Source: Turneriella parva DSM 21527 (GTDB lineage Bacteria > Spirochaetota > Leptospiria > Turneriellales > Turneriellaceae). Taken from it: a stretch of DNA of 64,000 bases. Under the pieces are notes generated by a model, which saw nothing but the letters and a program-made list of their open reading frames with translations, had not been told where the DNA came from and ran no database searches. The stretch spans positions 3,658,001-3,722,000 of the forward strand of contig NC_018020.1 in the NCBI RefSeq assembly GCF_000266885.1. The letters are read 5' to 3'. Below are positions 1 through 11,727 of the stretch, piece after piece (the stretch's first letter is position 1; each line of letters begins with the position of its first letter). Both the position numbers and the translations under genes were made by a program.

Positions 1-159
1 GAATTTACGATTGGTCACGCATGGCGAAAAAATGTATACGAAAGTGTTGCTTGCTCGTCGATTGAAGAGTATACAATACTCAGGTATATTGGGAAATGTT
101 TGAAACAGGCTGAAATGCCAAATACTATTTTTCCCATGGCTGAAGATCTGGCAAAGTAG
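1..159 (+). CDS. C-terminal end of an unidentified cassette gene (5' truncated by window)
   Basis: Frame 1 is open from the first base and closes at a TAG at 157-159, about 50 bases before the first attC site, which is where integron cassette genes normally end. The visible 52 residues include the stretch NVYESVACSSIEEYTILRYI and end in MAEDLAK. No family is recognised from this fragment. The hairpin at 171-184 follows directly. Confidence 0.55.
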   Translation, partial: EFTIGHAWRKNVYESVACSSIEEYTILRYIGKCLKQAEMPNTIFPMAEDLAK

Positions 160-170
160 ATTGGGCGCTC

Positions 171-184
171 GCGCATCCTTGCGC
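171..184. other. small hairpin with ATCCTT loop
   Basis: GCGC, loop ATCCTT, GCGC. The stem is only 4 bp, but the six-base loop is the same as in the longer hairpins at 7417, 9037 and 9752. It lies between the partial gene and its attC site. Confidence 0.45.
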
Positions 185-207
185 TCACTCACAGGTGCGA
201 CAACAGC

Positions 208-403
208 AGAGAACACGTTTTACCTGCTGCGCTCGCTGCGGTGCCGTAGCTCCTCGCGTGCTCGGCCACTCCGCGCCGAAGATGCCCTGCGCCCGCCGGC
301 CAGTGGGCCTGCATTGGCGGGCTCGGGCAGGCGCTTCGGGCACATTTTTGCTTGTGTCTAAGAAGCCACAAGCAAAAACGTCAAGGTAAAACCAACGTTG
401 TCG
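208..403 (+). repeat. attC site 0 (196 bp)
   Basis: The left core ends in AAC (212-214) and the right core starts with GTT (397-399). Inside are the paired arms GTTTTACC and GGTAAAAC, and a distal stem in which TTTTTGCTTG near 345 pairs with CAAGCAAAAA near 370. The body is nearly identical to attC sites 5 and 11. The recombination point should be between G397 and T398. Confidence 0.88.
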
Positions 404-414
404 GCCATTCATTT

Positions 415-1212
415 ATGAAATTAACTTTTCTAAAAGCACCAACCCTGTTAGCGTTAATGATTTCAACGCTAGCAGCAAAACCCATAAAACCTCAGGACAT
501 AATTATCGTCGAAATAACTTCGCAAGACGTTGGAGTAAGGTTGAAATCTGTAGAAGAGTATGATACAAATCGACTTGTTAGACACGCTTTTCGGACCGCC
601 TCAGCAGAGTTTCTAAGGCGGGCGCAAGGGAAATCGAAATTTATACTAATAGATATGTGGTATCCCGACTTACTCGAAATGCCAAGCGACGAGTCTTTAT
701 TGGCTGCCCTCAAACTGTCTCCCCGTATTACTTTCGCCTCTGGGGGGCCGCATAATCAAAGGTTTGAAAAATCGCTTTCACATTTTGCTGAAGCTATTCC
801 AGAAATGGGGCATATCCTGCTGAATGCGGAAGATCCGTCCGTGTTCTTTTTTTTTCCGACCCTATGCACTGAAGACTCAGATTGGCCTGCTAACAAACAT
901 CCCTGCCCGGTGAAATTTCAGCAAAAGCACATAGCATTATTGGCGGCGGAGAAGTACCTTGGGATTGAATTATCTTTTGAACCGGGCAGTATTTTTTGGG
1001 TGCCGAGAAACGAGTTTAAGAGGTTCCACCGCATAACCTATTCAAGCTTCAAGAAGAATCCCAAAGTCATTGATAATAAGTTAGTAATCTTGATAAGTAA
1101 ACCATTCCCACACACAGATATGTTTGATATTCCTGGACGCGGCAGAATATCGGGCTCCGAAATTTTAGCCATGATGATAGTATTTTACTCGCAAGATCTT
1201 TCTGCAAAATGA
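415..1212 (+). CDS. secreted CHASE2-like domain protein
   Basis: A 265-aa product beginning with a short basic N-terminus and a hydrophobic stretch (LLALMISTLA), consistent with a signal peptide. The body resembles a stand-alone CHASE2 extracytoplasmic sensor domain: an IDMWYPD strand, a central FPTLCTEDSDWP segment, a KFQQKHIALLAAEKYLG helix and a C-terminal PHTDMFDIPGRGRISGSEI motif like the end of CHASE2. No downstream signalling domain is attached, which is unusual for CHASE2. The ATG at 415 is chosen because it precedes the signal-like segment; it lies only 18 bases from the recombination point and has no clear ribosome-binding site. Sole gene of cassette A. The fold assignment is by eye. 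Confidence 0.6.
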   Translation: MKLTFLKAPTLLALMISTLAAKPIKPQDIIIVEITSQDVGVRLKSVEEYDTNRLVRHAFRTASAEFLRRAQGKSKFILIDMWYPDLLEMPSDESLLAALKLSPRITFASGGPHNQRFEKSLSHFAEAIPEMGHILLNAEDPSVFFFFPTLCTEDSDWPANKHPCPVKFQQKHIALLAAEKYLGIELSFEPGSIFWVPRNEFKRFHRITYSSFKKNPKVIDNKLVILISKPFPHTDMFDIPGRGRISGSEILAMMIVFYSQDLSAK

Positions 1213-1217
1213 ACGGC

Positions 1218-1411
1218 CGACAACAAATTTTACGCGCTGCGCCGCGACCACTTCGTTGGGTCGCGTGCTCGGGTCTCCGCGGCAAAGATCGCGGACGACG
1301 CGCACACCGGGAGGTGTGTTTTCGCGCGTCGCCGCGAGCCGCTCCGACCACATTTTGACTTGCTGTGAAGACACAGCAAGTCAAAACGTCAGCGTAAAAT
1401 CAACGTTAGAC
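1218..1411 (+). repeat. attC site 1 (194 bp)
   Basis: Left core AAC at 1222-1224, right core GTTAGAC at 1405-1411, which fits the GTTRRRY consensus exactly. This is the second sequence class of attC body (GCGCTGCGCCGCGACC in the left arm). The distal stem pairs CATTTTGACTTGCTG with CAGCAAGTCAAAACG. Confidence 0.88.
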
Positions 1412-1440
1412 GCCATTTTGTGATGTAAGAGATTTCATAC

Positions 1441-2058
1441 ATGAGTAGCAACATATTCAAAGACAGCAAAACACGAGATTTCTGGGTTTGGATCGATCCG
1501 ACCAACTTCATGACAAAGCATCAAGTCACGCTTGCTGGCAGTTTTACTTCCGCCGGCACAACTGATACTCAAGAAAACTTGATGTTCACCCCAAATCCGA
1601 ATTTCCGGGCTGCCATTAGCCCATTTCAAAGTGGGCTGACAATACGCTATATAGCCGAATATAATTTGGAAATCCACAGAAAGCATTCATTTATGAATTA
1701 CCCTTCGAGGCTCCAGGCGATTTTTCTATTCGACTCAGAAGCAGAGGCCAATAAATATCGAGAAAGACATATGGCCCACGTCGGCAATCGGCTATTGAAA
1801 AAGGTTAAGACTTATGCCGGCTACACCTTCTCAAGGCATGATTCAAGTTGGGTTGATTTTATGAGAATAGGGCATTCTATGGACTCCGACACTATTCGCA
1901 CAATTTCCGAATCATATTGGCGTGGCGATGCAACCGCGGCAAATAGCCTGAAATCAATGGGCCAAGATTGGTCACAAGACCCGATATACGAGATACTCTT
2001 TATTGGCAGAGTTGACTTTTATGATAAATCACTCCCTATCTCACAAAACGGCGTCTAA
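1441..2058 (+). CDS. cassette protein, DUF2441-like (tentative)
   Basis: A 205-aa soluble protein with no signal peptide or membrane segment. The middle (SRLQAIFLFDSEAEANKYRE, about residues 87-106) and the later WVDFMRIG and SYWRGD segments recall small DUF2441-type proteins, but I cannot confirm this. The gene starts at an ATG 34 bases into the cassette. Its TAA stop is supplied by the attC left core itself (GTCTAAC), so the coding region overlaps the recombination site. AT-richer than the core genome, as usual for cassette genes. Function unknown. Confidence 0.7.
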   Translation: MSSNIFKDSKTRDFWVWIDPTNFMTKHQVTLAGSFTSAGTTDTQENLMFTPNPNFRAAISPFQSGLTIRYIAEYNLEIHRKHSFMNYPSRLQAIFLFDSEAEANKYRERHMAHVGNRLLKKVKTYAGYTFSRHDSSWVDFMRIGHSMDSDTIRTISESYWRGDATAANSLKSMGQDWSQDPIYEILFIGRVDFYDKSLPISQNGV

Positions 2059-2276
2059 CAAAATTTACCCGCTGCGCTCGCTGCGGTGCCGTAGCTCCTC
2101 GCGTGCTCGGGTCTGCGCGGCAAGGATCGCGGACGGCGCGCAAGCGGGACGCTTGCTTTTGCGCGCCGCCGCGAGCCGCTCCGACCACATTGATGGTGCT
2201 TAATATGCGGCTTTTCAAATAAGGCCGGTTTTATTGTGTGGCACACCATCAACGTCGGGTAAATTCCGCGTTGGCT
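2053..2276 (+). repeat. attC site 2 (224 bp)
   Basis: Left core TCTAAC ends at 2059; right core GTTGGCT is at 2270-2276. One of the longer sites: its tip carries a long arm TTGATGGTG near 2190 pairing with CACCATCAA near 2245. The body shares the GCTGCGGTGCCGTAGCTCC block with sites 0 and 5. Confidence 0.85.
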
Positions 2277-2298
2277 GAAATAATTGCGCCTTTGTCCT

Positions 2299-2319
2299 GC
2301 GTCGCCTTCGTGGCGACGC
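2299..2319. other. hairpin upstream of cassette C gene
   Basis: Perfect 8-bp stem GCGTCGCC / GGCGACGC with a TTCGT loop, about 50 bases before the gene at 2373. There is no U-tract, so it is not a clear intrinsic terminator on the + strand; it could isolate the gene from upstream transcription. Confidence 0.55.
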
Positions 2320-2372
2320 GGCTACGATTTGAGATTTAAAGCCAATGCTAATCAAATTCATTTACATGATAG

Positions 2373-3044
2373 ATGGCAATCGAGAAAAATGAGAATTTAC
2401 AGAGGTTAAGACGATTTATGCAAATATCGCAATCAGAAAAAAACACACCTCAACTCACCATTACCATCAATGCGGTAATAGACGCCGTCTGGCACGCTCT
2501 TCGCCATAAAGAGAAACTAATGCAGTGGCATGGTTGGGCTACGCCCAGCCTTGAAGATGAGATAAATACGATTTATTTTACTGATGTGAAAGAAGAAACT
2601 GATGATGTTCAGAAGTATAAGCTTGTAGTGAACGGCGGTGATACTTTCATCCTTAAGTCTGACCAAGACGCCACAAACTTAACACTCGTAAGAGCTGGGC
2701 TTAGTGGTAACATTGAATGGGATGCATACTACGGTAATATTACAGAGGGTTGGGTCTCATTTATAGAGCAGCTGCGCTTTTTGCTTGAACATTCGCCAAA
2801 GATCCCTCGAAAAACAACTTTTAACAAGAAGAAGTTGGTTAGGGAAGAGATCATATCACAGTTGAATCTTTCGGACCTGACGGAAGGTACTAAATTCAAA
2901 GGGCAGCTCGAGGGTGAGATGCTTTCTGGAGAAGTATGGTTCAATACGCTAAACCAACTTGGTCTTGTAGTCAATGATTGGGGACCAGGTTTGTCAATTA
3001 TACAGTTCAGCGAGAATTGTTGCATTGATACCGAATTTAAGTAG
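2373..3044 (+). CDS. SRPBCC (START/AHSA1-like) domain protein
   Basis: 223 aa, cytosolic. After about 28 residues the sequence TITINAVIDAVWHAL followed by LMQWHGWATPSLEDEI is typical of the first strand and helices of the SRPBCC ligand-binding fold, and GWVSFIEQLRFLLEH matches the long C-terminal helix. A second segment (about 150-223) is a smaller domain of unknown type. These folds bind hydrophobic ligands; none can be inferred here. The start at 2373 is the first ATG; an alternative at 2418 would shorten the product by 15 residues. Sole gene of cassette C. Confidence 0.65.
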   Translation: MAIEKNENLQRLRRFMQISQSEKNTPQLTITINAVIDAVWHALRHKEKLMQWHGWATPSLEDEINTIYFTDVKEETDDVQKYKLVVNGGDTFILKSDQDATNLTLVRAGLSGNIEWDAYYGNITEGWVSFIEQLRFLLEHSPKIPRKTTFNKKKLVREEIISQLNLSDLTEGTKFKGQLEGEMLSGEVWFNTLNQLGLVVNDWGPGLSIIQFSENCCIDTEFK

Positions 3045-3127
3045 CAAAGGTTGGACCTTTTTGGATCCTCACGCTTGGTTTCTCGCCGCCCGGCCCTCCT
3101 ATACGGGGTCACAGGCGCAATTACTTC

Positions 3128-3344
3128 AGCCAACAAATTTTACGCGCTGCGCCGCGACCGCTCCGCTGGGTCGCGTGCTCGGGTCTTCGCGGCGAGAGAT
3201 CGCGGATGACGCGCACACCGGGAGGTGTGTTTTCGCGCCTCACCGCGAGCCGCTACGACCACATTTTTTGACGCGAATCGGCTTTACAGATTGAATAATT
3301 GACACAGGCGTCAAAAAACGTCAGCGTAAAATCCAACGTTTGGT
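3128..3344 (+). repeat. attC site 3 (217 bp)
   Basis: Left core GCCAAC ends at 3134, right core GTTTGGT begins at 3338. Class 2 body. The tip contains the stem TTTTTGACGC / GCGTCAAAAA enclosing GGCTTTACAGATTGAA, a loop segment also present in attC site 4 despite a different stem. Confidence 0.85.
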
Positions 3345-3360
3345 GCAATGCGCTAATTTT

Positions 3361-4020
3361 ATGCAAAACTATGAAACGCTGTACTATTTTGTAACGGGCC
3401 TATTGGCTCTATACTTTGCGAACAAAGTTCATGAAATGCTAAGGGGCAGTGACTTAAATCGATTAAGGCGGTCTTTATCGGCCACTAATTTCTCTATGCT
3501 TGCGGAATCCGCTGATTCGATTGAAATGTGTCTTGCATTTCCAGAAAGATTACGACCATTGATTAACTCTTCGTATGACTTTGGTCGTGGCGTGTCTGGC
3601 TTTCTTTCTGAGATGCCGTTAAATCGGCGCGAAGAATATTCCCGTATTGTCTTTGCGTTATACTCTCGTTTGCCAAACATTATCCCAAAGGATCCTTCCC
3701 TGATCCTGTCAAATTTCTATGACCTTGAAGCGAAGCCAAATTTACCAAGAAAGGTCCATAAGCTGCCTTTCCAAAAAACGCCATGGTTCATAGCCGGTAC
3801 CTCAGAAGAACTATTCAAAAAGATTTTCGTGCCAGAGCTGATAGGCTTGCTGGATGGGCTTGCTACTGGCAAAAAACATCCAATTTTTATCCTGCAGTTG
3901 GAGTTAGGTCGCTTCCTTTCCTTAATAATCATCAATGCCCCGGAAAAAGCATCCGAGTTTGCGCATGTAGTAGAACAATTTGTAAAAATCAAAACTTACA
4001 TCGAAGCGCACTGCACCTAA
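3361..4020 (+). CDS. membrane-anchored cassette protein of unknown function
   Basis: 219 aa. The N-terminus (TLYYFVTGLLALYFA, residues 5-19) is a single predicted membrane segment, followed by a basic loop and a mostly helical cytosolic region. A second apolar stretch, FLSLIIINAPE, lies near the C-terminus. No family recognised. The ATG at 3361 directly precedes the membrane segment and is preferred over an upstream in-frame GTT-proximal start. The TAA stop lies in the attC left core (ACCTAAC). Sole gene of cassette D. Confidence 0.65.
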   Translation: MQNYETLYYFVTGLLALYFANKVHEMLRGSDLNRLRRSLSATNFSMLAESADSIEMCLAFPERLRPLINSSYDFGRGVSGFLSEMPLNRREEYSRIVFALYSRLPNIIPKDPSLILSNFYDLEAKPNLPRKVHKLPFQKTPWFIAGTSEELFKKIFVPELIGLLDGLATGKKHPIFILQLELGRFLSLIIINAPEKASEFAHVVEQFVKIKTYIEAHCT

Positions 4021-4230
4021 CAAAATTTACCTGCTGCGCTCCCTGCGGTGCCGTGGCTCCTCGGGTGCTCGGCCCTACGCGCCCAGGATGCCCTGCGCCC
4101 GGCCAAGCGGGAGCTTGGTTTTGCCGGGCTCGGGCAGGCGCTCCGGGCACATTTGGTGACGCAAAATGGCTTTACAGATTGAAATAATGACACGAGCGTC
4201 ACCAAACGTCAGGTAAATTCCGCGTTGGGT
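4015..4230 (+). repeat. attC site 4 (216 bp)
   Basis: Left core ACCTAAC (4015-4021) fits RYYYAAC exactly and right core GTTGGGT (4224-4230) fits GTTRRRY exactly. The distal stem TTGGTGACGC / GCGTCACCAA encloses GGCTTTACAGATTGAA. The left part is the template for recognising the truncated attC site 12. Confidence 0.9.
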
Positions 4231-4263
4231 GCCATAACGAATGACATGAGCAGGAGTCGTAAG

Positions 4264-4845
4264 ATGTGTAGAATGTTAGTTTTGACCGTGTTGAAACTGT
4301 TTTTGTCAGTGCTCGTCTTAAGTTGTACAAAGCCTAGTTTACCGACAATATCTGAGGAAACGACCTGCGATAGATTGCAGAAAGCCACTGCAAGCTTGAA
4401 TTCGAGGCAAAGGAAAGACTATGAGTCAGCCGGGTTCATACAACCGTGGCGGGCTAATTTTGTCTTAGTTTCAGAGAAGTTCAGCATCAACTGCGATCTC
4501 CGATATCATTCCGGGCTCTTTTTAGCACATAAGATAAATGAAACTCAATTGTCGGATAACCTAAGGCAATTCGTTTCAAAACATCAATGTGCAATGTCCA
4601 ATATAGTCCTGGCAGCCACAAAGACAAATGTCTGGCGGGGGGCTGGTGAGCATGATATTTTTCTCACGATTTCCGATGAACTAATGCCTTGCTGGGCGGA
4701 AGTTGCGACTGATGAGATGCTTGTTGCAAATTCAGTGAATTTCAAGTTACTGCATCGACAGATGATACTGTCCCCTAGTAGCAGGCTGATTCCGATTTTG
4801 GAGAAAGAGTTGAACAACCCTCAGGGAAATCTTGTATCAGCCTGA
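4264..4845 (+). CDS. putative lipoprotein, probably truncated by an in-frame TGA
   Basis: 194 aa from the ATG at 4264, preceded by AGGAG at a good distance. The N-terminus MCRMLVLTVLKLFLSVLVLS followed by C is a lipoprotein signal peptide with lipobox (LVLSC). Several Cys residues follow (ETTCDRL, SINCDL, HQCAMS, MPCWAE), suggesting disulphides in an exported domain. The same reading frame continues past the TGA at 4843-4845 for another 62 codons to a TAG at 5032, almost at the attC site, so the ancestral gene was probably 257 aa. No family recognised. Sole gene of cassette E. Confidence 0.65.
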   Translation: MCRMLVLTVLKLFLSVLVLSCTKPSLPTISEETTCDRLQKATASLNSRQRKDYESAGFIQPWRANFVLVSEKFSINCDLRYHSGLFLAHKINETQLSDNLRQFVSKHQCAMSNIVLAATKTNVWRGAGEHDIFLTISDELMPCWAEVATDEMLVANSVNFKLLHRQMILSPSSRLIPILEKELNNPQGNLVSA

Positions 4846-5034
4846 GGGGCACACATTTTGCTGCACAATGCTGGCATAAATAGACCTTTCAAGCCTTTCG
4901 ACCATGTGAATCCGAAATTCTTCTTTAGACCTAAGGAAGAATATCTGGAAATCCATAGGCGACTAATTAGCAAACCAGGCCCAATTAGTCCCAACGAACT
5001 ATGGGCTCTTCTCAATGCTGGCGATCCGCTATAG
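4846..5034 (+). other. in-frame continuation of the cassette E gene beyond TGA
   Basis: 63 codons in the frame of the preceding gene, open until TAG at 5032-5034. The encoded stretch (PFDHVNPKFFFRPKEEYLEI, then SPNELWALLNAGDPL) is protein-like and ends 22 bases before the attC left core, the normal place for a cassette gene to stop. A TTG at 4858 could also start a separate 58-aa product. Most likely a nonsense mutation split one gene. Confidence 0.5.
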
Positions 5035-5055
5035 ACTCTGTAAATTCGTTACGGC

Positions 5056-5251
5056 ACCCAACACGTTTTACCTGCTGCGCTCGCTGCGGTGCCGTAGCTC
5101 CTCGCGTGCTCGGCCACTCCGCGCCGAAGATGCCCTGCGCCCGCCGGCCTGTGGGCCTGCATTGGCGGGCTCGGGCAGGCGCTCCGGGCACATTTTTGCT
5201 TGTGTCGAAGACGCCACAAGCAAAAACGTCAAGGTAAAACCAACGTTGTCT
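5056..5251 (+). repeat. attC site 5 (196 bp)
   Basis: Left core ACCCAAC (5056-5062), right core GTT at 5245-5247. Body almost identical to attC site 0, including the distal TTTTTGCTTGTG / CACAAGCAAAAA stem. Confidence 0.9.
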
Positions 5252-5275
5252 GACATTGTCGCGCTTCTCTTATCT

Positions 5276-5295
5276 CACCCGCATCCGTGCGGGTG
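5276..5295. other. hairpin with ATCCGT loop upstream of cassette F gene
   Basis: Perfect 7-bp stem CACCCGC / GCGGGTG with the six-base loop ATCCGT, one base different from the ATCCTT loop found elsewhere in the array. About 50 bases upstream of the gene start. Confidence 0.55.
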
Positions 5296-5345
5296 CGGCT
5301 AATCTGATTGACGACTTCATCGGGCACCGGAGTCTTTTCCCGCTT

Positions 5346-5891
5346 ATGAAAAAATTTTTACTTATCGCCCTGATCTGGAGCTCTTCTCCTTGCCTTTTTG
5401 GGGCAGAAAAAGTCCAATGCCAAACAGGCGCATATAGTAAAGATTCTGACCCTGCTGGTACGAATATTCGGGAATCTCCTAATGGCAAAATCCTGACCGC
5501 AATTCCCAGCGATACGGTTTTTTCAATCATTGGGTATAAAGACGGTTGGTTTGAAGTAACAGATTTTGAGTATTATGTTCATGATTCCCCCGATATAGCT
5601 TTTGCGAAACGCATGAAACATAAAATTTCTGGAGAAAAGGCAACCATACCTGGCTTGAAAGGTTGGATTCACCGAAAACATGTAGATGTTCATTTTGGTA
5701 TTAGCTCTCCAATTAGAGTCAGAAAAGTACCCGATGAAGAAAGCATATTGTCGTTTTTGCTGCGATATCCTAATCCAGAAGGCCCAGATGAAATCCTTGA
5801 ATGTTCAGGGAGATATTTGAAGATAAAGGTAAAGCATAGAACCGGTTGGATAGACCAGTTTTGCACTAATACCCTAAGTAACTGTGTTTAA
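5346..5891 (+). CDS. secreted SH3-like domain protein
   Basis: 181 aa. The ATG at 5346 opens a clear signal peptide (MKKFLLIALIWSSSPCLFGA). The mature part begins with the bacterial SH3 pattern: GTNIRESPNGKILTAIPSDT, then VFSIIGYKDGWFEVTDFEY, and a further GLKGWIHRKHVD motif; a second weaker repeat runs from SPIRVRKVPDEE to RTGWIDQFC. Bacterial SH3 domains usually bind cell-wall or protein ligands in the periplasm. An upstream in-frame start at 5256 would bury the signal peptide and is rejected. Hairpins lie on both sides (5276 and 5910). Sole gene of cassette F. Confidence 0.75.
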   Translation: MKKFLLIALIWSSSPCLFGAEKVQCQTGAYSKDSDPAGTNIRESPNGKILTAIPSDTVFSIIGYKDGWFEVTDFEYYVHDSPDIAFAKRMKHKISGEKATIPGLKGWIHRKHVDVHFGISSPIRVRKVPDEESILSFLLRYPNPEGPDEILECSGRYLKIKVKHRTGWIDQFCTNTLSNCV

Positions 5892-5909
5892 TAGTCTAAG
5901 ACAAAAAGA

Positions 5910-5937
5910 GTCACGCCGACCTCCATGCCGGCGTGAC
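5910..5937 (+). terminator. hairpin after cassette F gene
   Basis: GTCACGCCG / CGGCGTGAC, a 9-bp stem, 18 bases after the stop codon. It has no U-tract on the + strand, but ACAAAAAGAG on its 5' side gives TTTTT after the stem when read on the - strand, so it may end transcription arriving from either side. Confidence 0.55.
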
Positions 5938-5950
5938 GCGCGACAACGTC

Positions 5951-6173
5951 AGACAACAAAATTTACCCGCTGCGCGCGCGACCACTCCGTTGGGTCGCGT
6001 GCTCGGCCTCGGTCGCCAAGAGTCGTTGACGCCCGACAAACGGGACGTTTGTTTGGTCGGGCGCAACGAGGCGACCTTCGGCAAATCGATAGTGCATCAA
6101 GTCGCGGCTTTCGAATGAAGACCGCATCTATTGTGCGATGCACTATCGACTTCGGGTAAATTCCACGCTGCCC
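5951..6173 (+). repeat. attC site 6 (223 bp), right core mutated to GCT
   Basis: Left core GACAAC ends at 5957. The right core at 6167 reads GCTGCCC instead of GTTNNNY, although the matching left core of the same cassette (ending 6446) keeps AAC. The distal stem TCGATAGTGCATC / GATGCACTATCGA is long and nearly perfect. Confidence 0.8.
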
Positions 6174-6446
6174 GCCATGCCTATGCGTGGCCGAAGAATA
6201 GAAGAAGCACTGTGTGCAGTCGAGCTTGCGGCTTGCTATTTGGGTGAAGATTAGAGTTTGGCGACTGGCGCAAGCACGACTGCTCGGTAGGCGCTCCTGA
6301 TATCGAGGTTCGTGAGCGTCAGAAATCCTACTATTTGTTCGAATTCGGTATTGCGGCTTCGCAGGCCACGCATCGCGAGCTTGAAAGCAATTGGCCCCTG
6401 CCCGATCGAGGCTCTGTAGCGCTCGCTAGCCGGCACGGCGGGCAAC
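6167..6446. other. cassette G: no sense-strand gene
   Basis: A 279-bp cassette bounded by its own inverted repeat (GCTGCCCGCC-A-TGCC and GGCACGGCGGGCAAC). No + strand reading frame of any quality is present. A 64-codon - strand frame (6445 to 6251, TTG start in the cassette end, containing VGFLTLTNLDIRSAYRAVVL) fills two thirds of it and may be a reversed gene, but nothing else supports it. Confidence 0.5.
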
Positions 6447-6631
6447 AGATTTTACAAGCTGCGCCGCCATTCGCTACGCGAAAGGCGTGCTCGGTCTCGG
6501 CGACGAAGATGCGTCGACGCCCGCAGCTCAGTTGAGCTTTATTGGCGGGCGCGCCGCAGTCGCCTTCGACACAATTTGGGTTGCGCCGAAGACGGCACAC
6601 CCCAAATCGTCTAGTAAAATCTAACGTTAGG
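6440..6631 (+). repeat. attC site 7 (192 bp)
   Basis: Left core GGGCAAC (ending 6446), right core GTTAGGC (6625-6631), an exact GTTRRRY. Inner arms are ATTTTACAAGCTGCGC and GTCTAGTAAAATC. Distal stem: TTTGGGTTG near 6575 with CACCCCAAA near 6600. Confidence 0.85.
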
Positions 6632-6665
6632 CGCAATATCGCAAATTTTTTTAAGATTCCCTCAT

Positions 6666-6685
6666 CGCTGCCCTCCCTGGCAGCG
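6666..6685. other. hairpin upstream of AbrB/PIN module
   Basis: Perfect 7-bp stem CGCTGCC / GGCAGCG with the six-base loop CTCCCT, immediately upstream of the -35 box at 6690. Either an insulator against upstream transcription or an operator half-site pair. Confidence 0.5.
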
Positions 6686-6689
6686 AAAT

Positions 6690-6718
6690 TTGACAATTAT
6701 TTGCCGTTTTGTCATATA
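6690..6718 (+). promoter_or_regulatory. predicted promoter of the AbrB/PIN module
   Basis: TTGACA at 6690-6695, then a 17-base spacer and CATATA (6713-6718); TATACA at 6715 gives 19 bases. A ribosome-binding site (AAGAAGG) precedes the ATG at 6755. The cassette therefore carries its own promoter. Confidence 0.6.
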
Positions 6719-6754
6719 CAGTGTAACCTAGCAGGGTAAGAAGGTCTTACATTC

Positions 6755-7033
6755 ATGAAAAAGTACGAAATTACGAGCCTTTCTTCGAAGGGACAAATTG
6801 TTATCCCAACTCAAATCCGTAAGCGTCTAGCACTCGCCGTGGGCACAAAAATGGCCATTATGACTGATGGCAAAAACGTCCTTCTGCAGAAAATTGAACC
6901 ACCCAGAATTTCAAAGTTTAATGATCTTATTGCACGCAGCCAAGAAATTAGAAAGCAGAAGAAGTTAAAGAAAAGCGATATCCAGGCCGCCATCAAAGCA
7001 GCTCGTAAGAAGAAAGTTGCGAATAGTATTTGA
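6755..7033 (+). CDS. AbrB/MazE-family antitoxin
   Basis: 92 aa. The first 45 residues (ITSLSSKGQIVIPTQIRKRL, then VGTKMAIMTDGKNVLLQKIE) are the classic AbrB swapped-hairpin DNA-binding domain; the C-terminal half is Lys-rich and helical (KKLKKSDIQAAIKAARKKK), the usual toxin-binding tail. Expected to neutralise the PIN ribonuclease encoded next and to repress its own promoter. The toxin gene overlaps its last 17 bases. Forms cassette H. Confidence 0.85.
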   Translation: MKKYEITSLSSKGQIVIPTQIRKRLALAVGTKMAIMTDGKNVLLQKIEPPRISKFNDLIARSQEIRKQKKLKKSDIQAAIKAARKKKVANSI

Positions 7034-7418
7034 TACGAACCTGCTGATTTCGGCGATTTTCTATGGCGGCAAGCCATTGGAATTGCTGAACTTGGTCAAA
7101 AACGGAAAAATTGACGTAATTGTTACTCCTGATATCCTGTCTGAATACAAAAGGTCCTTATTCAATTTTTCTAAGGATGAGGCCATCGCGGCTGAATGGC
7201 ATTCATATTTCCGGGAGTTTGGAATCCTGGTCCAAGTTACGCGGAAATTCGATTTATGCAGGGACGCCGATGATAACAAATTTCTCAACGCGGCATATGC
7301 GGGAAAAGCTGATTTCATCGTTAGCGGTGATAAGGATTTGCGGGAAGTTCAGGGATTCCATATACCCGTAAGTACCGTGGCCGCTTTTCTAGCCACGGTT
7401 AAAGAAAAGAAAACATGA
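7017..7418 (+). CDS. PIN-domain toxin (VapC-like, COG1569 type)
   Basis: 133 aa, TTG start overlapping the antitoxin gene by 17 bases. Begins RIVFDTNLLISAIFYGG, the PIN motif with the first catalytic Asp (residue 5). Later acidic positions typical of PIN nucleases are in CRDADDNKFLNAA and FIVSGDKDL. Such toxins cleave RNA when the antitoxin is degraded. Translation is probably coupled to the antitoxin because there is no independent ribosome-binding site. A strong hairpin begins at the stop codon. Confidence 0.88.
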   Translation: MRIVFDTNLLISAIFYGGKPLELLNLVKNGKIDVIVTPDILSEYKRSLFNFSKDEAIAAEWHSYFREFGILVQVTRKFDLCRDADDNKFLNAAYAGKADFIVSGDKDLREVQGFHIPVSTVAAFLATVKEKKT

Positions 7419-7446
7419 GGCCATTGCCATCCTTGGCAATGGCCTC
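7417..7446. terminator. 12-bp hairpin with ATCCTT loop after the PIN toxin
   Basis: GAGGCCATTGCC, loop ATCCTT, GGCAATGGCCTC: a perfect stem starting inside the toxin stop codon. No U-tract follows, so it may act as a transcript-stabilising or pausing structure rather than a textbook terminator. Confidence 0.6.
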
Positions 7447-7463
7447 TATCGATGCGATACTGC

Positions 7464-7655
7464 GCCTAACAAATTTTACAAGCTGCGCCCGCGTTCGCTT
7501 CGCTGCCACGCGGTGCTCGGCCCTACGCGCCAAAGATGTCCTCGTCGCACAAACGTGACGTTTGTTTGGTGCTCCTCGGCCAGGCGCTTCGGGCACATTT
7601 TGCCTTGCAGCGAAGACGCTTCAAGGCAAAACGTCTTGTAAAATCCGCGTTCTAT
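7464..7655 (+). repeat. attC site 8 (192 bp)
   Basis: Left core GCCTAAC (7464-7470) fits RYYYAAC; right core GTT at 7649-7651. Distal stem TTTTGCCTTG near 7600 with CAAGGCAAAA near 7622. Inner arms TTTTACAAG / CTTGTAAAA. Confidence 0.88.
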
Positions 7656-8025
7656 GTCATTGCCTAGCGTCGCGAAGAGGTAGAAAAGCCGAAGAGCACC
7701 TCGTCATTGTAAGCTCCTTCCAGGCATCAACGCTGGTTGTGTAACGACTGCTATAGATGAAGATCGCGACGCTCCGCGATCGCTGCAAGAGTATTACCCA
7801 GGCGTATTCGCAAAACCCGCGAAGAGTTGTCGGCGCGATGGATCAGGTTTCGTCTTGCGCTACGTTCGCGAGCCCACGTTCATTCGTACGCGGCGGGAAT
7901 TACGGAAAGCTTGCGAACTCCGCTTTTCGCAGACCTCGCGCCGCTCGACAGGTAAAGTGCGGGTTTTGCGAACACGCCACGGCCCTACCCCCCCAAGCGA
8001 CCGCTTGACGGCAACGACATAGAAC
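7650..8025 (+). ncRNA. cassette I: gene-less, with nested inverted repeats (possible structured RNA)
   Basis: A 376-bp cassette without a convincing protein gene. It holds a perfect 14-bp inverted repeat (TTCGCAAAACCCGC at 7807-7820 and its complement at 7959-7972) enclosing a second 10-bp pair with one G-T wobble (GTTCGCGAGC at 7864-7873, GCTTGCGAAC at 7909-7918). Nested stems in an otherwise gene-less cassette suggest an RNA product or a regulatory element. A weak 83-codon frame (7757-8008) has no recognisable features. Confidence 0.4.
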
Positions 8026-8234
8026 AAATTTTACGCGCTGCGCCGCGACCACTCCGTTGGGTCGCGTGCTCGGCCCTGCGCGCCAAAGATGCATTCGTCG
8101 CACAAACGGGACGTTTGTTTGGTGCTCCTCAGGCAGGCGCTCCGGGCACATGCGCTTCGCGTAAAACGCAATGGGTGAAAAGGCAAAACACTTTACACCC
8201 GCAGGCGCACGTCAGCGTAAAATCAACGTTCTCT
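8019..8234 (+). repeat. attC site 9 (216 bp)
   Basis: Left core ATAGAAC ends 8025, right core GTT at 8228-8230. Class 2 body (GCGCTGCGCCGCGACC). The tip differs from the other sites, with TGCGCTTCGCGTAAAACGCA. Confidence 0.85.
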
Positions 8235-8259
8235 GCAATTCGGCGCAAGACACTTTTTC

Positions 8260-8292
8260 TTGACAACATATAGATTGTACAATATATTGTAC
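8260..8292 (+). promoter_or_regulatory. promoter with overlapping palindromic operator for YefM/YoeB-like pair
   Basis: TTGACA (8260-8265), 17-base spacer, TATATT (8283-8288). The -10 box sits inside a perfect 16-bp palindrome, GTACAATATATTGTAC (8277-8292). YefM-type antitoxins are known to bind TGTACA-based palindromes, so this is a fitting autoregulatory operator. The predicted transcription start coincides with the ATG at 8295. Confidence 0.75.
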
Positions 8293-8294
8293 TT

Positions 8295-8543
8295 ATGGAT
8301 GCGGTTTCTTACAGTGATCTGAGGAAGAACCTTAAGAAGTACATGGACGATGTCTACACAGGGCATTATCCCCTCATCATTACGAGAAAAAACGATGAAA
8401 ATGTTGTAATGATTTCGTTAGATGAGTTTAATTCGTTGCAAGAAACAAATTACCTTTTAGCCTCTGACGCCAATGTCAAACACTTGAAAAAGTCCATCGC
8501 GCAGCACCGAGCAGGTAAATTGAAGCAAGTAAAGATTCCTTGA
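8295..8543 (+). CDS. Phd/YefM-family antitoxin
   Basis: 82 aa. MDAVSYSDLRKNLKKYMDDV is the YefM/Phd N-terminal DNA-binding core, followed by PLIITRKNDENVVMISLDEF, the family signature. The C-terminal 30 residues are charged and form the toxin-binding segment. It should repress the palindromic promoter just upstream together with the toxin. The transcript is predicted to be leaderless. Stop overlaps the toxin start (TGATG). Confidence 0.92.
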   Translation: MDAVSYSDLRKNLKKYMDDVYTGHYPLIITRKNDENVVMISLDEFNSLQETNYLLASDANVKHLKKSIAQHRAGKLKQVKIP

Positions 8544-8800
8544 TGAATGTATTATTTACGGATGCCGGCTGGGAGGACTATGTTCACTGGCAGTCAGAAG
8601 ATCGAAAGACATTGAAAAAAATTAATGATTTAATCAGAGATATAAAACGCTCTCCATATGAGGGTATTGGGAAGCCTGAGCCCCTGAAACACCAATTACA
8701 AGGCTATTGGTCACGCAGAATTGACCCGGAGCATAGACTTGTATATCAGGTCGAAGGCAACAAGACACTTGTCATTATAGCCTGCCGCTATCACTACTAA
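8543..8800 (+). CDS. yoeB: YoeB-family toxin (RelE-like mRNA interferase)
   Basis: 85 aa from the ATG at 8543; a TTG one codon upstream is possible. The motifs are those of YoeB: TDAGWEDYVHWQSEDRKTLK at the N-terminus, KRSPYEGIGKPEPLK in the middle and SRRIDPEHRLVYQVE followed by IIACRYHY at the C-terminus. The Glu, Arg and terminal His-Tyr expected for ribosome-dependent mRNA cleavage are present. One-base overlap with the antitoxin gene implies coupled translation. Cassette J. Confidence 0.93.
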   Translation: MNVLFTDAGWEDYVHWQSEDRKTLKKINDLIRDIKRSPYEGIGKPEPLKHQLQGYWSRRIDPEHRLVYQVEGNKTLVIIACRYHY

Positions 8801-8812
8801 GCGCCGAACTGC

Positions 8813-9005
8813 AGACAACAAGTTTTACCTGCTGCGCGCGCGAGCACTTCGTTGGCTCGCGTGCTCGGCCGCTCCGCGCCAAAGATGCCCTCGTCGCACA
8901 AGCGGGACGCTTGTTTTGTGCTCCTCGGGCAGGCGCTCCGGGCACGTTTTGGCTTGCGGCGAAGACGCCACAAGCCAAAACGTCAAGGTAAAACCCGCGT
9001 TGTCT
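8813..9005 (+). repeat. attC site 10 (193 bp)
   Basis: Left core GACAAC ends 8819, right core GTT at 8999-9001. Inner arms GTTTTACC / GGTAAAAC; distal stem CGTTTTGGCTTG with CAAGCCAAAACG. Confidence 0.88.
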
Positions 9006-9036
9006 GAAATGATTTGCCAACAGATTCGCCCTGCTC

Positions 9037-9054
9037 CCCGTCATCCTTGACGGG
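9037..9054. other. hairpin with ATCCTT loop upstream of PIN toxin
   Basis: CCCGTC, loop ATCCTT, GACGGG, 48 bases before the TTG start at 9102. The loop is identical to those at 171, 7417 and 9752 while the stem sequence differs. Confidence 0.55.
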
Positions 9055-9101
9055 CCATTGCCGAAGCGAATTCAAGCAGGGTTACTCAAGGAATAAGCAA
9101 T

Positions 9102-9581
9102 TTGAAGCCAGTTAAGTTGTATTTAGAGACATCGGTTTGGAACTTTTACTATGCCGATGATGCTCCTGAAAAAAGGGATATAACCCGGCAGTTCTTTGAA
9201 AACTACGCCAGAAATCAGTATGAGTTGTTTATTTCTGATGAGGTATTGAGGGAAATCAGTCAGGCCAATCCGAATACGCAGCTTTTACTTCGCGAATTGA
9301 TACAAAAATATGAGCCACAGATTATCGATCTATCAGAAGAGGTTGAAATCCTAGCTCAAGCCTATCTGGAAGCCAAAATCCTCCCTCCCCGGTGCGAGGT
9401 TGACTGCAGGCATGCTGCCGTAGCCACCGTTTATGAGCTTGACGCGCTACTAAGTTGGAATATGAAACACTTGGCGAACTACAGGCGAATGCAAGCCATC
9501 AACGCTATTAATTTGTTGCGCGGTTATGGAAAGCATTTGGAACTGATGGTGCCAATGGCGGTGAGCGAAGATGAAAGTTGA
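9102..9581 (+). CDS. PIN-domain protein, probable toxin
   Basis: 159 aa from a TTG preceded by AAGGAATA. The N-terminus KLYLETSVWNFYYADDAP resembles the PIN group in which the first catalytic residue is in an LETS motif, with DEVLREISQ, EVDCRHAAVATVYELDALLSWN and KHLANYRR completing the acidic site (Asp in EVDCRHAA and Ser-Trp-Asn). Predicted RNase toxin. The small gene that overlaps its end is the likely antitoxin, giving a toxin-first order, the reverse of the usual VapBC arrangement. Cassette K. Confidence 0.8.
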   Translation: MKPVKLYLETSVWNFYYADDAPEKRDITRQFFENYARNQYELFISDEVLREISQANPNTQLLLRELIQKYEPQIIDLSEEVEILAQAYLEAKILPPRCEVDCRHAAVATVYELDALLSWNMKHLANYRRMQAINAINLLRGYGKHLELMVPMAVSEDES

Positions 9582-9750
9582 CAAGTCATTAGAAGAAGTC
9601 AGAGCCTGGAAGGATAAGATTTACGAAGCCGACAAGGGTCTGACAACTTCACAGTTGCTCGAAAAATTGAGATTGGAGACTGCAGACATTAAGGCCTCCC
9701 TCAAGCTTAAGCAATACAGACCAGAATTAGCAAGTGCAAAAGCTAAGTAG
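9571..9750 (+). CDS. small antitoxin candidate (59 aa)
   Basis: MKVDKSLEEVRAWKDKIYEA followed by DKGLTTSQLLEKLRLETADI and a Lys-rich tail. The gene starts 11 bases before the end of the PIN gene in another frame. Its size, position, high charge and helical character fit the short partner proteins seen beside this PIN type (VWKWKEE-like LEEVRAWKD pattern). No DNA-binding domain is visible, so autoregulation may be absent. An 11-bp hairpin follows its stop codon. Confidence 0.75.
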   Translation: MKVDKSLEEVRAWKDKIYEADKGLTTSQLLEKLRLETADIKASLKLKQYRPELASAKAK

Positions 9751-9751
9751 C

Positions 9752-9779
9752 CATTTTTCGGCATCCTTGCCGAAAAATG
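9752..9779. terminator. 11-bp hairpin with ATCCTT loop after cassette K genes
   Basis: CATTTTTCGGC, loop ATCCTT, GCCGAAAAATG, directly after the TAG stop. The A/T-rich outer stem can serve as a bidirectional terminator. Confidence 0.65.
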
Positions 9780-9805
9780 CGGCGTACAAAGTGGCAAATC
9801 ACTTC

Positions 9806-10001
9806 AGACAACAAGTTTTACCTGCTGCGCTCGCTGCGGTGCCGTAGCTCCTCGCGTGCTCGGCCACTCCGCGCCGAAGATGCCCTGCGCCCGCCGGCCA
9901 GTGGGCCTGCCTTGGCGGGCTCGGGCAGGCGCTTCGGGCACATTTTTGCTTGTGACTAAGAAGCCACAAGCAAAAACGTCAAGGTAAAACCAACGTTGTA
10001 T
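9806..10001 (+). repeat. attC site 11 (196 bp)
   Basis: Left core GACAAC ends 9812, right core GTT at 9995-9997. The body is nearly identical to attC sites 0 and 5. Confidence 0.9.
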
Positions 10002-10039
10002 GCAATTGCGCGATAAGTCGTAGTGATTTCACAAAAACA

Positions 10040-10064
10040 TTGACTCCCTATTGAATAGGGTCAA
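10040..10064 (+). promoter_or_regulatory. -35 box and near-palindromic operator of HigBA-like pair
   Basis: TTGACT (10040-10045) begins the imperfect palindrome TTGACTCCCTATT / GAATAGGGTCAA. Such a site overlapping the promoter is the expected target of the HTH antitoxin encoded downstream. The toxin TTG start is only 4 bases beyond the palindrome. Confidence 0.5.
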
Positions 10065-10067
10065 AAT

Positions 10068-10397
10068 TTGATTGTGTTCAGGGTTTTCATTGAGCTGCCT
10101 TCATTCTTGAAATCTTGGACGAAGATCGGCTTAAGTGAAGAAGATTTGTGGGAGCTGGAGGATTTTTTAGCAGAAAATCCTGAAAGTGGTGATACAGTTG
10201 CGGGAACCGGTGGTTTACGTAAGATTAGATGGGCCGCGAAAGGCAGAGGGAAACGAGGTGGCGCGCGAGTTTGTTACGTCGATTTTGTCCGGCGAGAGAA
10301 ACTTTATTCTATAGCGGCATACTCGAAAAATGAAAAGTCTGATATTTCTCCAGAGGAAAAGGCTCAGATAAAGAAGCTAATTGACCAACTTAAGTGA
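10068..10397 (+). CDS. RelE/HigB-family toxin
   Basis: 109 aa with a TTG start. The segment GTGGLRKIRWAAKGRGKRGGARVCYVDF (split across residues 45-70) followed by YSIAAYSKNEKSDISPEEKA is the signature of the HigB-like RelE toxins that are encoded before their antitoxin: the Arg/Lys cluster, the Tyr and the KNEKSDLS-like loop are all present. Predicted ribosome-dependent mRNA interferase. Ten bases separate it from the antitoxin. Cassette L. Confidence 0.9.
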   Translation: MIVFRVFIELPSFLKSWTKIGLSEEDLWELEDFLAENPESGDTVAGTGGLRKIRWAAKGRGKRGGARVCYVDFVRREKLYSIAAYSKNEKSDISPEEKAQIKKLIDQLK

Positions 10398-10407
10398 GGA
10401 TGCATAT

Positions 10408-10743
10408 ATGAAAACACGGACACAAACAAAAGTAGGCCAAAGCAGTATACAGGGGCTGAAGGAAGCTATTGCCTTTGAAAAAAGCGGTGCCTTAGCCGGT
10501 GCTCGCGTAAGACAAATCGCAATAAAGCCGCTTTCGCACTACAATAATCGTGAGATTAAGCGCATTAGAGAGAGTTTGAAATTGACGCAAAGATCTTTTG
10601 CCTTACTCATGGGTGTCTCTATCAAGACTGTAGAAGCCTGGGAAAATGGTAGAAATGAGCCCAATGGCACAGCTCAGCGAATGCTATATTTACTCAAAAC
10701 AGACACCAAATTGCCGGAAAAGTACGCGTTGATTGGTGCCTGA
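10408..10743 (+). CDS. HTH (XRE) antitoxin, HigA-like
   Basis: 111 aa from the ATG at 10408, which has GTGAGGA eight bases upstream; an in-frame TTG at 10381 lies inside the toxin gene and is rejected. The C-terminal half carries the helix-turn-helix IKRIRESLKLTQRSFALLMGVSIKTVEAWENGRNEPNG. The N-terminal half (GLKEAIAFEKSGALAGARV) is the usual toxin-contacting region. Expected to bind the operator at 10040. Last gene of the intact array. Confidence 0.9.
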   Translation: MKTRTQTKVGQSSIQGLKEAIAFEKSGALAGARVRQIAIKPLSHYNNREIKRIRESLKLTQRSFALLMGVSIKTVEAWENGRNEPNGTAQRMLYLLKTDTKLPEKYALIGA

Positions 10744-10756
10744 ATCGCGCAACTGC

Positions 10757-10878
10757 ATACAACAAAATTTACCTGCTGCGCTCCCTGCGGTGCCGTAGCT
10801 CCTCGGGTGCTCGGCCCTACGCGCCAGAGATGCCCTGCGCCCGGCCAAGCAGGAGCTTGGTTTTGCCGGGCTCGGGCA
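10757..10878 (+). repeat. attC site 12, truncated by an insertion sequence
   Basis: Left core ATACAAC ends 10763. The following 115 bases match the left half of attC site 4 (CTGCTGCGCTCCCTGCGG ... TTGCCGGGCTCGGGCA) and stop abruptly at the insertion-sequence end. The right half of the site is not found beyond the element, so the attC is irreversibly broken. Confidence 0.88.
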
Positions 10879-10905
10879 TGCAGTGACCCCCGAAAACCGG
10901 ACAGC

Positions 10906-11727
10906 TTAACCTGCTGCCATTAGGTTCCTGTATTCAACCGGCGAACGCATCTTCAAGCCTTTATGGGGCGCATGATGGTTGTAGTCATGCATCCAGTCTG
11001 AAATCTGCGGCATTACTTTCCACGCGGATTCAAGGCGATTTATGTAAACGTAATCGCGCTTGAATGTTTTCACAAATGCTTCGGCCATACCGTTGCTTTC
11101 AGGGCTATAGGCAGGCGTCGTGCAGACTTGAAAGCCGATGGAAGATGCAAAATGAACCGTTTCACGGCTCGTGAATTGTGGGCCATTATCACTGAGCAGT
11201 TGAATGGTGTGTGGGCATTCAGCCTTGCCAAAGCGCTCTTCGACTGCACCGAGCAGCATGTCGCGAATGTTCAGACCGTCGATGCCGACGGTGCTGCTAA
11301 AGTGATTGATGACTTGCCGATCGTGGCAATCCAGAACAAACGCCACCCAGACGTGAGTGCCATCCCAGGTAAGCACGCCAAATATATCCATGCACCAGCG
11401 CACGTCACTTTTCGCCGTGATGATTCTGCCATCATGCACAAGGGTGCGACGGCTTGCAACTTTTTGCAGCAGCAACTGGTGCACCTTCATCAATCGGTAG
11501 ACGCGCTTCTTATTCACGCGTGAAAAGCCTTGTTTTTCAAGGGTTTTGTTGAGCATTGCTGTCACGCGTCTATAACCGTATGTCGGTCTTTCGTCGCAGA
11601 TCCGTCGGATTTCCGGCAGTACTCGCTCATCTACCGTCAGGTCGGTCTTGCGCCCCCGTTGTGAGGATTTCAAACTTTCATAGAGGTTGGACCGTGAGAC
11701 ACGCAATACATCCGCTACATGGCTCAC
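10906..11727 (-). CDS. IS3-family transposase OrfB (DDE integrase core)
   Basis: 273 aa. HTH_21-like N-terminal region (PEIRRICDERPTYGYRRVTAMLN) then the DDE catalytic core: first Asp in WCMDIFGV, second in LLSDNGPQF, Glu in NGMAEAFVKTFKRDY, ending in HAPHKGLKMRSPVEYRN. It overlaps orfA by four bases, but the true product is probably the OrfAB fusion made by -1 frameshifting on the A8 run; the frame is open upstream of the ATG back to that run (TDLAQAIARHRGFRVSHVAD). Looks intact. Confidence 0.93.
   Translation of the reverse strand: MSHVADVLRVSRSNLYESLKSSQRGRKTDLTVDERVLPEIRRICDERPTYGYRRVTAMLNKTLEKQGFSRVNKKRVYRLMKVHQLLLQKVASRRTLVHDGRIITAKSDVRWCMDIFGVLTWDGTHVWVAFVLDCHDRQVINHFSSTVGIDGLNIRDMLLGAVEERFGKAECPHTIQLLSDNGPQFTSRETVHFASSIGFQVCTTPAYSPESNGMAEAFVKTFKRDYVYINRLESAWKVMPQISDWMHDYNHHAPHKGLKMRSPVEYRNLMAAG

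Follow-up and report, generated by a model that had tools for sequence, protein, structure and literature searches.

A 64-kb window of the Turneriella parva DSM 21527 genome (Spirochaetota, class Leptospiria; the whole stretch analysed, 64,000 nucleotides, positions 3658001–3722000 of the 4.38-Mb contig NC_018020.1) contains the distal end of an integron-like array, in which gene cassettes alternate with attC-like sites. Each cassette carries its own terminal inverted repeat, interrupted at base 11 by a fixed A/G difference, and the recombinase gene beside the array encodes an enzyme without the IntI-specific domain (I2). Leftward from the window, the attC-like sites run for 213 kb up to this tyrosine recombinase gene (G000:C1:3455169-3456266, minus strand; 366 aa), with the first cassette approximately 170 bp away. 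The array extends over G000:C1:3456.7k-3668.9k, positions 1–10880 being its portion of the window, and to our knowledge it ranks among the largest cassette arrays. Its sites possess R and L boxes and are hairpin-forming. Located by L-box motifs, about 213 sites delimit 212 inter-site cassettes, and the ends match in 208 of the 212 by a loose test on bases 1–10; 110 of these are distinct. Bases from 11 onwards were not used in the selection.

In the window, all array features lie on the plus strand. An attC-like site (208–396) closes a preceding, partly cut cassette, with GCAGAGAAC as its R'' arm and with L'' and L' arms resembling those of the other sites. The cassette at 397–1224 starts with GTTGTCGGCC-A-TTCATTT, and the complement of its end reads GTTGTCGGCC-G-TTCATTT. 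The same arrangement, written as start/end complement, is present at 1405–2059 (GTTAGACGCC-A/G-TTTTGTGA), 2270–3134 (GTTGGCTGAA-A/G-TAATTGCGCCT), 4224–5062 (GTTGGGTGCC-A/G-TAACGAAT), 5245–5957 (GTTGTCTGAC-A/G-TTGTCGCGC) and 8999–9812 (GTTGTCTGAA-A/G-TGATTTGCCA), and also in the cassette with MazE-like and PIN-domain genes at 6626–7470 (GTTAGGCGCA-A/G-TATCGCA), in a cassette of about 375 bp at 7649–8025 (GTTCTATGTC-A/G-TTGCC) and in the final complete cassette at 9995–10763 (GTTGTATGCA-A/G-TTGCGCGAT), which carries RelE-like and HTH genes. The three remaining cassettes have A/G at base 11 together with one further inner mismatch, namely T/A at base 4 (3338–4021), C/T at base 2 (a 280-bp cassette, 6167–6446) and C/G at base 4 (8228–8819, with Phd/YefM and YoeB-like genes). 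Hence, the statement of the sequence-only reading that position 11 is A in the start and G in the end complement of all 12 complete cassettes, with other inner differences at positions 2 or 4 only, is borne out; the repeat is also real, with a measured length in the window of 15–23 bp, somewhat wider than the 17–23 bp first given.

Across the 110 distinct cassettes, the start and the complement of the own end agree at 85–100% per position over bases 1–10. The identity of own pairs over bases 12–18 is 0.96, 0.99, 0.97, 0.95, 0.96, 0.95 and 0.87, and agreement falls sharply past base 18, to 53% at base 19 and 31% at base 21. When starts are paired with the ends of other cassettes, the identity is 0.76 at position 12, which is mostly T, and 0.27–0.30 at positions 13–18, with a maximum over 500 shuffles of 0.43 at positions 13–18. 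The repeat is thus cassette-specific, since own-pair identity at 12–18 far exceeds the shuffled values at 13–18, and a pattern shared freely among cassettes, which would have undone the original claim, is not what is found. Base 11 behaves differently. Own ends never agree there; the A/G pair is strict in 107 of the 110, and the three exceptions (genome positions 3491381, 3511647 and 3656439) contain an extra base at position 10/11 and become A/G once a one-base gap is allowed. A occupies base 11 in 109/110 starts and G in 108/110 ends, so that shuffling cannot test this position. Cassette specificity therefore holds for the repeat and not for position 11, where both letters are fixed and form a constant landmark pair without covariation. 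A covariation test among homologous cassettes gave little information and was dominated by a single repeated cassette. Nor does the stem as a whole favour wobbles on the bottom strand, since the remaining mismatches within bases 1–18 are few and unbiased. Self-pairing reaching 9–11 nt is already known in ordinary cassettes (PMC2727003); what is new here is the pairing continued past base 11 and the invariant mismatch.

The geometry proposed from the letters alone is retained. Position 11 lies beyond the recognised 7-bp boxes, and the repeat pairs as an outward continuation of the R stem solely in the excised circle; in the array, the R' of each hairpin comes from the next cassette. In the folded strands, position 11 is an A-C apposition on the top strand and a G-T wobble on the bottom strand. 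By isolated-strand folding predictions, the bottom strand of the circular junction is more stable than the top strand in 109/110 cases, by a mean of 6.2 kcal/mol, of which base 11 accounts for approximately 1.2 kcal/mol. Such predicted energies are no more than suggestive of recombination restricted to the bottom strand. Compared with the same site in the array, the circle hairpin gains on average 14 kcal/mol in stability, which suggests a ratchet whereby circles would be better substrates than integrated sites. An A:T or G:C pair at base 11 would stabilise both strands by 2–4 kcal/mol, and the mismatch is thus kept at a cost.

Two other explanations of the repeat were weighed. In the first, the repeat merely stabilises the folded circle, without any function for base 11 itself; the 14 kcal/mol advantage of the circle and the favoured bottom strand fit such a role, but every cassette retains a costly mismatch that pure stability pressure would erase, and the pairing does not fade but ends sharply, at base 18 in T. 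parva and at base 14 in the Bacteroidota arrays described below. We regard this explanation as quite improbable. In the second, the repeats are an unselected relic of cassette making, by hairpin-primed copying or quasi-palindrome correction. The nearly perfect own-end pairing across a fixed length, and the occurrence of the same repeat on some cassettes differing in length and content, are compatible with a copying origin. However, copying or correction would also have removed the mismatch at base 11, and the identical A/G occurs across phyla on unrelated cassettes, which makes a relic very improbable.

The recombinase beside the T. parva array belongs to a clade without the approximately 40-residue IntI insertion (I2). 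It aligns to VchIntIA (2a3v) in two blocks, separated by 24 residues in the T. parva protein versus 65 in 2a3v, and the shortened stretch is the location of I2 in VchIntIA. Similarly, the G-L-R box and the HxxRH motif lie 141 residues apart in every canonical IntI found and 97–108 residues apart in all I2-less relatives. The catalytic residues (Arg, Lys, His-Arg, His and Tyr) are conserved. The T. parva recombinase matches XerA-like, XerD and integron-integrase profiles. Its best NCBIfam match is NF040815 (XerA-like; 220.3 bits against a cut-off of 220), and the NCBIfam integron-integrase profile TIGR02249 reaches 190.1 bits in two stretches, below the cut-off of 265. A canonical IntI was looked for in the T. 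parva genome, and none was found. In an unrooted tree made with a quick method, canonical IntI form one clade (SH-aLRT 99), and the I2-less array group lies across a branch supported at 93; canonical IntI, Xer and the I2-less group are separated, and the T. parva enzyme falls outside the Xer clade used. The predicted structure of one relative (L152) is that of a tyrosine recombinase, with 2a3v and the archaeal Xer 4a8e as the best PDB matches.

The I2-less recombinases also carry an N-terminal extension, mostly of about 70–200 residues. A HARP-like N-terminal domain is fused to the tyrosine recombinase in L152, L144 and L159, and in L040 by eye only; the Pfam HARP match exceeds the cut-off only in L152, and just so, and is weak in L144 and L159. 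No Pfam HARP match is present in the T. parva extension, which differs. HARP is the annealing domain of SMARCAL1, which binds and anneals forked DNA.

The same base-11 rule is present in other genomes. In other Leptospiria genomes, searched with base 11 left free, A/G is found in 46/47 cassettes by script and in 47/47 after the odd case (G026, GTTATGCGTCATCC / GTTATGCGTTCGTCC) is read by eye as A/G plus a bulged T. In the case of chained Bacteroidota arrays beside recombinase relatives, 48 pairs comprise 41 A/G, 1 G/A and 6 unaligned; the G/A pair is an array read on the opposite strand and the unaligned six look like chance, giving 42/42 believable cassettes. Pairing in these Bacteroidota cassettes ends at base 14, and the G is often preceded by an extra T or by a T at base 10. 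HGW-Firmicutes-8 contains four cassettes with A/G, each of which also has A/T at base 10, and further examples occur in UBA5388 and L134, among Firmicutes and other metagenome-assembled genomes (MAGs). Throughout the Leptospiria, Bacteroidota, Firmicutes and other MAGs, A/G arrays always adjoin the one clade of I2-less tyrosine recombinases, and in most Bacteroidota loci the array begins within about 150 bp of the gene. Two layouts are observed. In Bacteroidota and some others (L132, L135, L143, L146, L147, L152 and L170), the array comes after the 3' end of the recombinase gene; in T. parva and HGW-Firmicutes-8 (L148), gene and array are arranged divergently, with the array on the 5' side of the gene.

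Canonical integrons lack the rule. Among 70 distinct cassettes of canonical Spirochaetota integrons, whose IntI were located with TIGR02249, A/G at base 11 occurs in 0/70, and pairing stops at base 8 (83% at base 8 and 17% at base 9). Among 37 gammaproteobacterial cassettes, A/G occurs in 2/37, base 11 is mostly A/A (20/37), and pairing fades at 11–12. Three class 1 resistance cassettes (L212) have 9–13 paired bases and A/G in none. A general attC property is thereby ruled out. In the canonical gammaproteobacterial starts (L224-L243), A is nonetheless the preferred letter at base 11 (25/37) and usually pairs with T; together with the end of pairing, this preference hints at an 11-bp R arm common to both kinds of cassette.

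Such an arm is the basis of a further explanation, in which base 11 is a sequence contact in double-stranded DNA: recognition of the 11-bp R' arm by the recombinase would require A-T at bases 11–12, G would keep R'' unbound or uncut, and the mismatch would be a by-product. Xer binding arms are about 11 bp long. The consensus TTNNNYGNNAT (bases 2–12) matches this length and is similar to the XerD arm of dif, and both the near-invariance of the two base-11 columns and the frequent A in gammaproteobacterial starts fit a contact. On the other hand, a contact leaves unexplained the cassette-specific pairing of bases 12–18, the indels by which A/G stays in phase with the outer segment, and the neighbouring T, whether at base 10 or bulged. 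Such a contact is judged unlikely, though less so than the other alternatives.

The sites served by the two kinds of recombinase also differ in the L arm. An L'' extrahelical base is present in 0/92 distinct T. parva sites and 1/25 Bacteroidota sites, versus 33/37 canonical spirochaete and 21/32 canonical gammaproteobacterial sites, where the unpaired base is mostly a top-strand C (bottom-strand G). In the I2-less sites, either the L stem is perfect or the spacers are unequal (2 versus 4; 3 versus 6). In canonical integrases, I2 reads the L'' extrahelical bases (PMC7790495). Thus, I2 and its target bases are absent together, and a new fixed asymmetry is present on the R'' arm. This link to an I2-less recombinase and to sites without the L'' base is the key element that the sequence-only reading, sound in its geometry, had not seen. 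It also bears on whether the array is a decayed or orphan canonical attC cluster that has lost its IntI and lies beside an unrelated recombinase. Integrase-less attC clusters (CALIN) are common (PMC9024848), and the missing canonical IntI would suit one; nevertheless, arrays of this kind are accompanied by the same recombinase clade in a large number of genomes spread over several phyla, mostly at short range in Bacteroidota, and the sites are without the canonical L'' bulge. An orphan cluster is, in our estimation, highly improbable.

The interpretation that we hold with moderate confidence is that the array is an integron-like system served by the I2-less recombinase, and that base 11, a landmark in the outer R arm, stands in for the L'' base. 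The recombinase would bind the R and L arms of the folded bottom strand. At base 11 this strand presents a T-G wobble, in some cases next to a T-T pair or one bulged base; the mismatch in the top strand is A-C. The wobble (or T bulge plus T-G), situated in the R arm approximately 10 bp from the crossover, would then be sensed instead of the I2-docked L'' bases, and through its distortion bottom-strand hairpins may be told from top-strand ones, or R' from R''. Because of the cassette-specific pairing to base 14 or 18, the circle hairpin would be the best folded, favouring insertion over excision, and the outer paired segment may seat the N-terminal domain or hold the wobble within the helix. 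More broadly, a second, I2-less integron lineage in Leptospiria, Bacteroidota, Firmicutes and probably Patescibacteria may read an R-arm mismatch or bulge on folded single-stranded DNA in place of the L'' bases, a proposal to which we give an even chance. The pattern and its limits, the association with I2-less recombinases, the missing L'' bulge and the dispersal of identical cassettes are shown directly, whereas cassette movement by this enzyme, its binding, the role of its N-terminal domain and the setting of strand or arm choice by base 11 are inferred.

Several points weigh against this interpretation. The evidence consists of sequences and predicted folds, and the energies were computed on isolated strands. 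The base-11 share of about 1.2 kcal/mol is small relative to the total of 6.2 kcal/mol, so that strand choice could depend on other asymmetries, such as spacers of 2 versus 4 nt. The A at base 11, common and usually paired in canonical gammaproteobacterial starts, may be a plain binding-site base. Furthermore, some I2-less relatives are not seen beside an array, perhaps owing to short contigs or to other roles.

By its working parts, the T. parva array is integron-like: a recombinase gene lies beside the array, the attC-like sites form hairpins, and cassettes behave as units with a G/TT junction. With canonical integrons (Vibrio, Xanthomonas, Treponema; class 1) it shares tandem cassettes, R''-L''...L'-R' hairpins with GTTNNNY/RNNNAAC R boxes, the GTT junction, a tyrosine recombinase at one end and a cassette start complementary to its own end. 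Formally, however, it falls outside the canonical integrons, because two defining features were tested and found absent. Canonical integrons possess the I2 insertion and the L'' extrahelical base, and their pairing to base 8 (spirochaete) or 11–12 (gammaproteobacterial) has no fixed A/G. The catalytic domain without I2 and the best match to NF040815 recall the Xer/dif systems (XerC/XerD/XerA); unlike these, many hairpin sites lie in cassette arrays rather than a single chromosomal dif, and the recombinases form a separate clade with an N-terminal extension. Canonical integrase profiles alone would be expected to score the array as a CALIN, from which it differs in the consistently adjacent recombinase clade and in a site signature common across phyla.

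The I2 helix is described (PMC7790495) as a requirement of cassette capture and as the innovation by which integron integrases arose from a Xer-like enzyme. Surveys pick integrases by I2 (PMC2426708), and Treponema has been named the sole spirochaete clade with integrons (PMC3607928); Leptospiria are uncredited with integrons in the literature examined. No description of I2-less integron-like arrays, of Turneriella integrons or of the base-11 rule was found in the open-access literature searched. If the second lineage is real, I2 would be one of two solutions for cassette capture and not a requirement, and integrons in Bacteroidota and Leptospiria would have been under-counted. The observations point to a second, hitherto overlooked route by which gene cassettes move as folded single-stranded DNA, and strand choice and integron origin become testable with natural enzymes.

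Around the right end of the array, the last attC-like site (10764–10880) is truncated by a transposase gene with rve and HTH_21 domains (window positions ~10880–11727), which terminates the array, as judged from sequence reading and domain matches. A gathering-threshold Rfam search of the 64-kb window gave zero matches. Toxin–antitoxin family matches in the cassettes (MazE/PIN at 6755–7415, Phd-YefM/YoeB at 8295–8797 and RelE/HTH at 10068–10740) parallel known large integrons.

The 280-bp and ~375-bp cassettes occur in about 50 and 30 copies in the array (across L009-L019), respectively, behind different attC ends and with the junction exactly at GTT. These repeated cassettes were dispersed as units in the past; they contain no obvious long gene. 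In addition, the 11 members of the GTTGTCTGAAATAATTGTGCCT family (L009-L019) share one terminal repeat and differ in cassette length and content, as if gene bodies had been swapped between fixed ends, and a near-identical repeat is found in another genome of the genus (G006, loci L052/L093).

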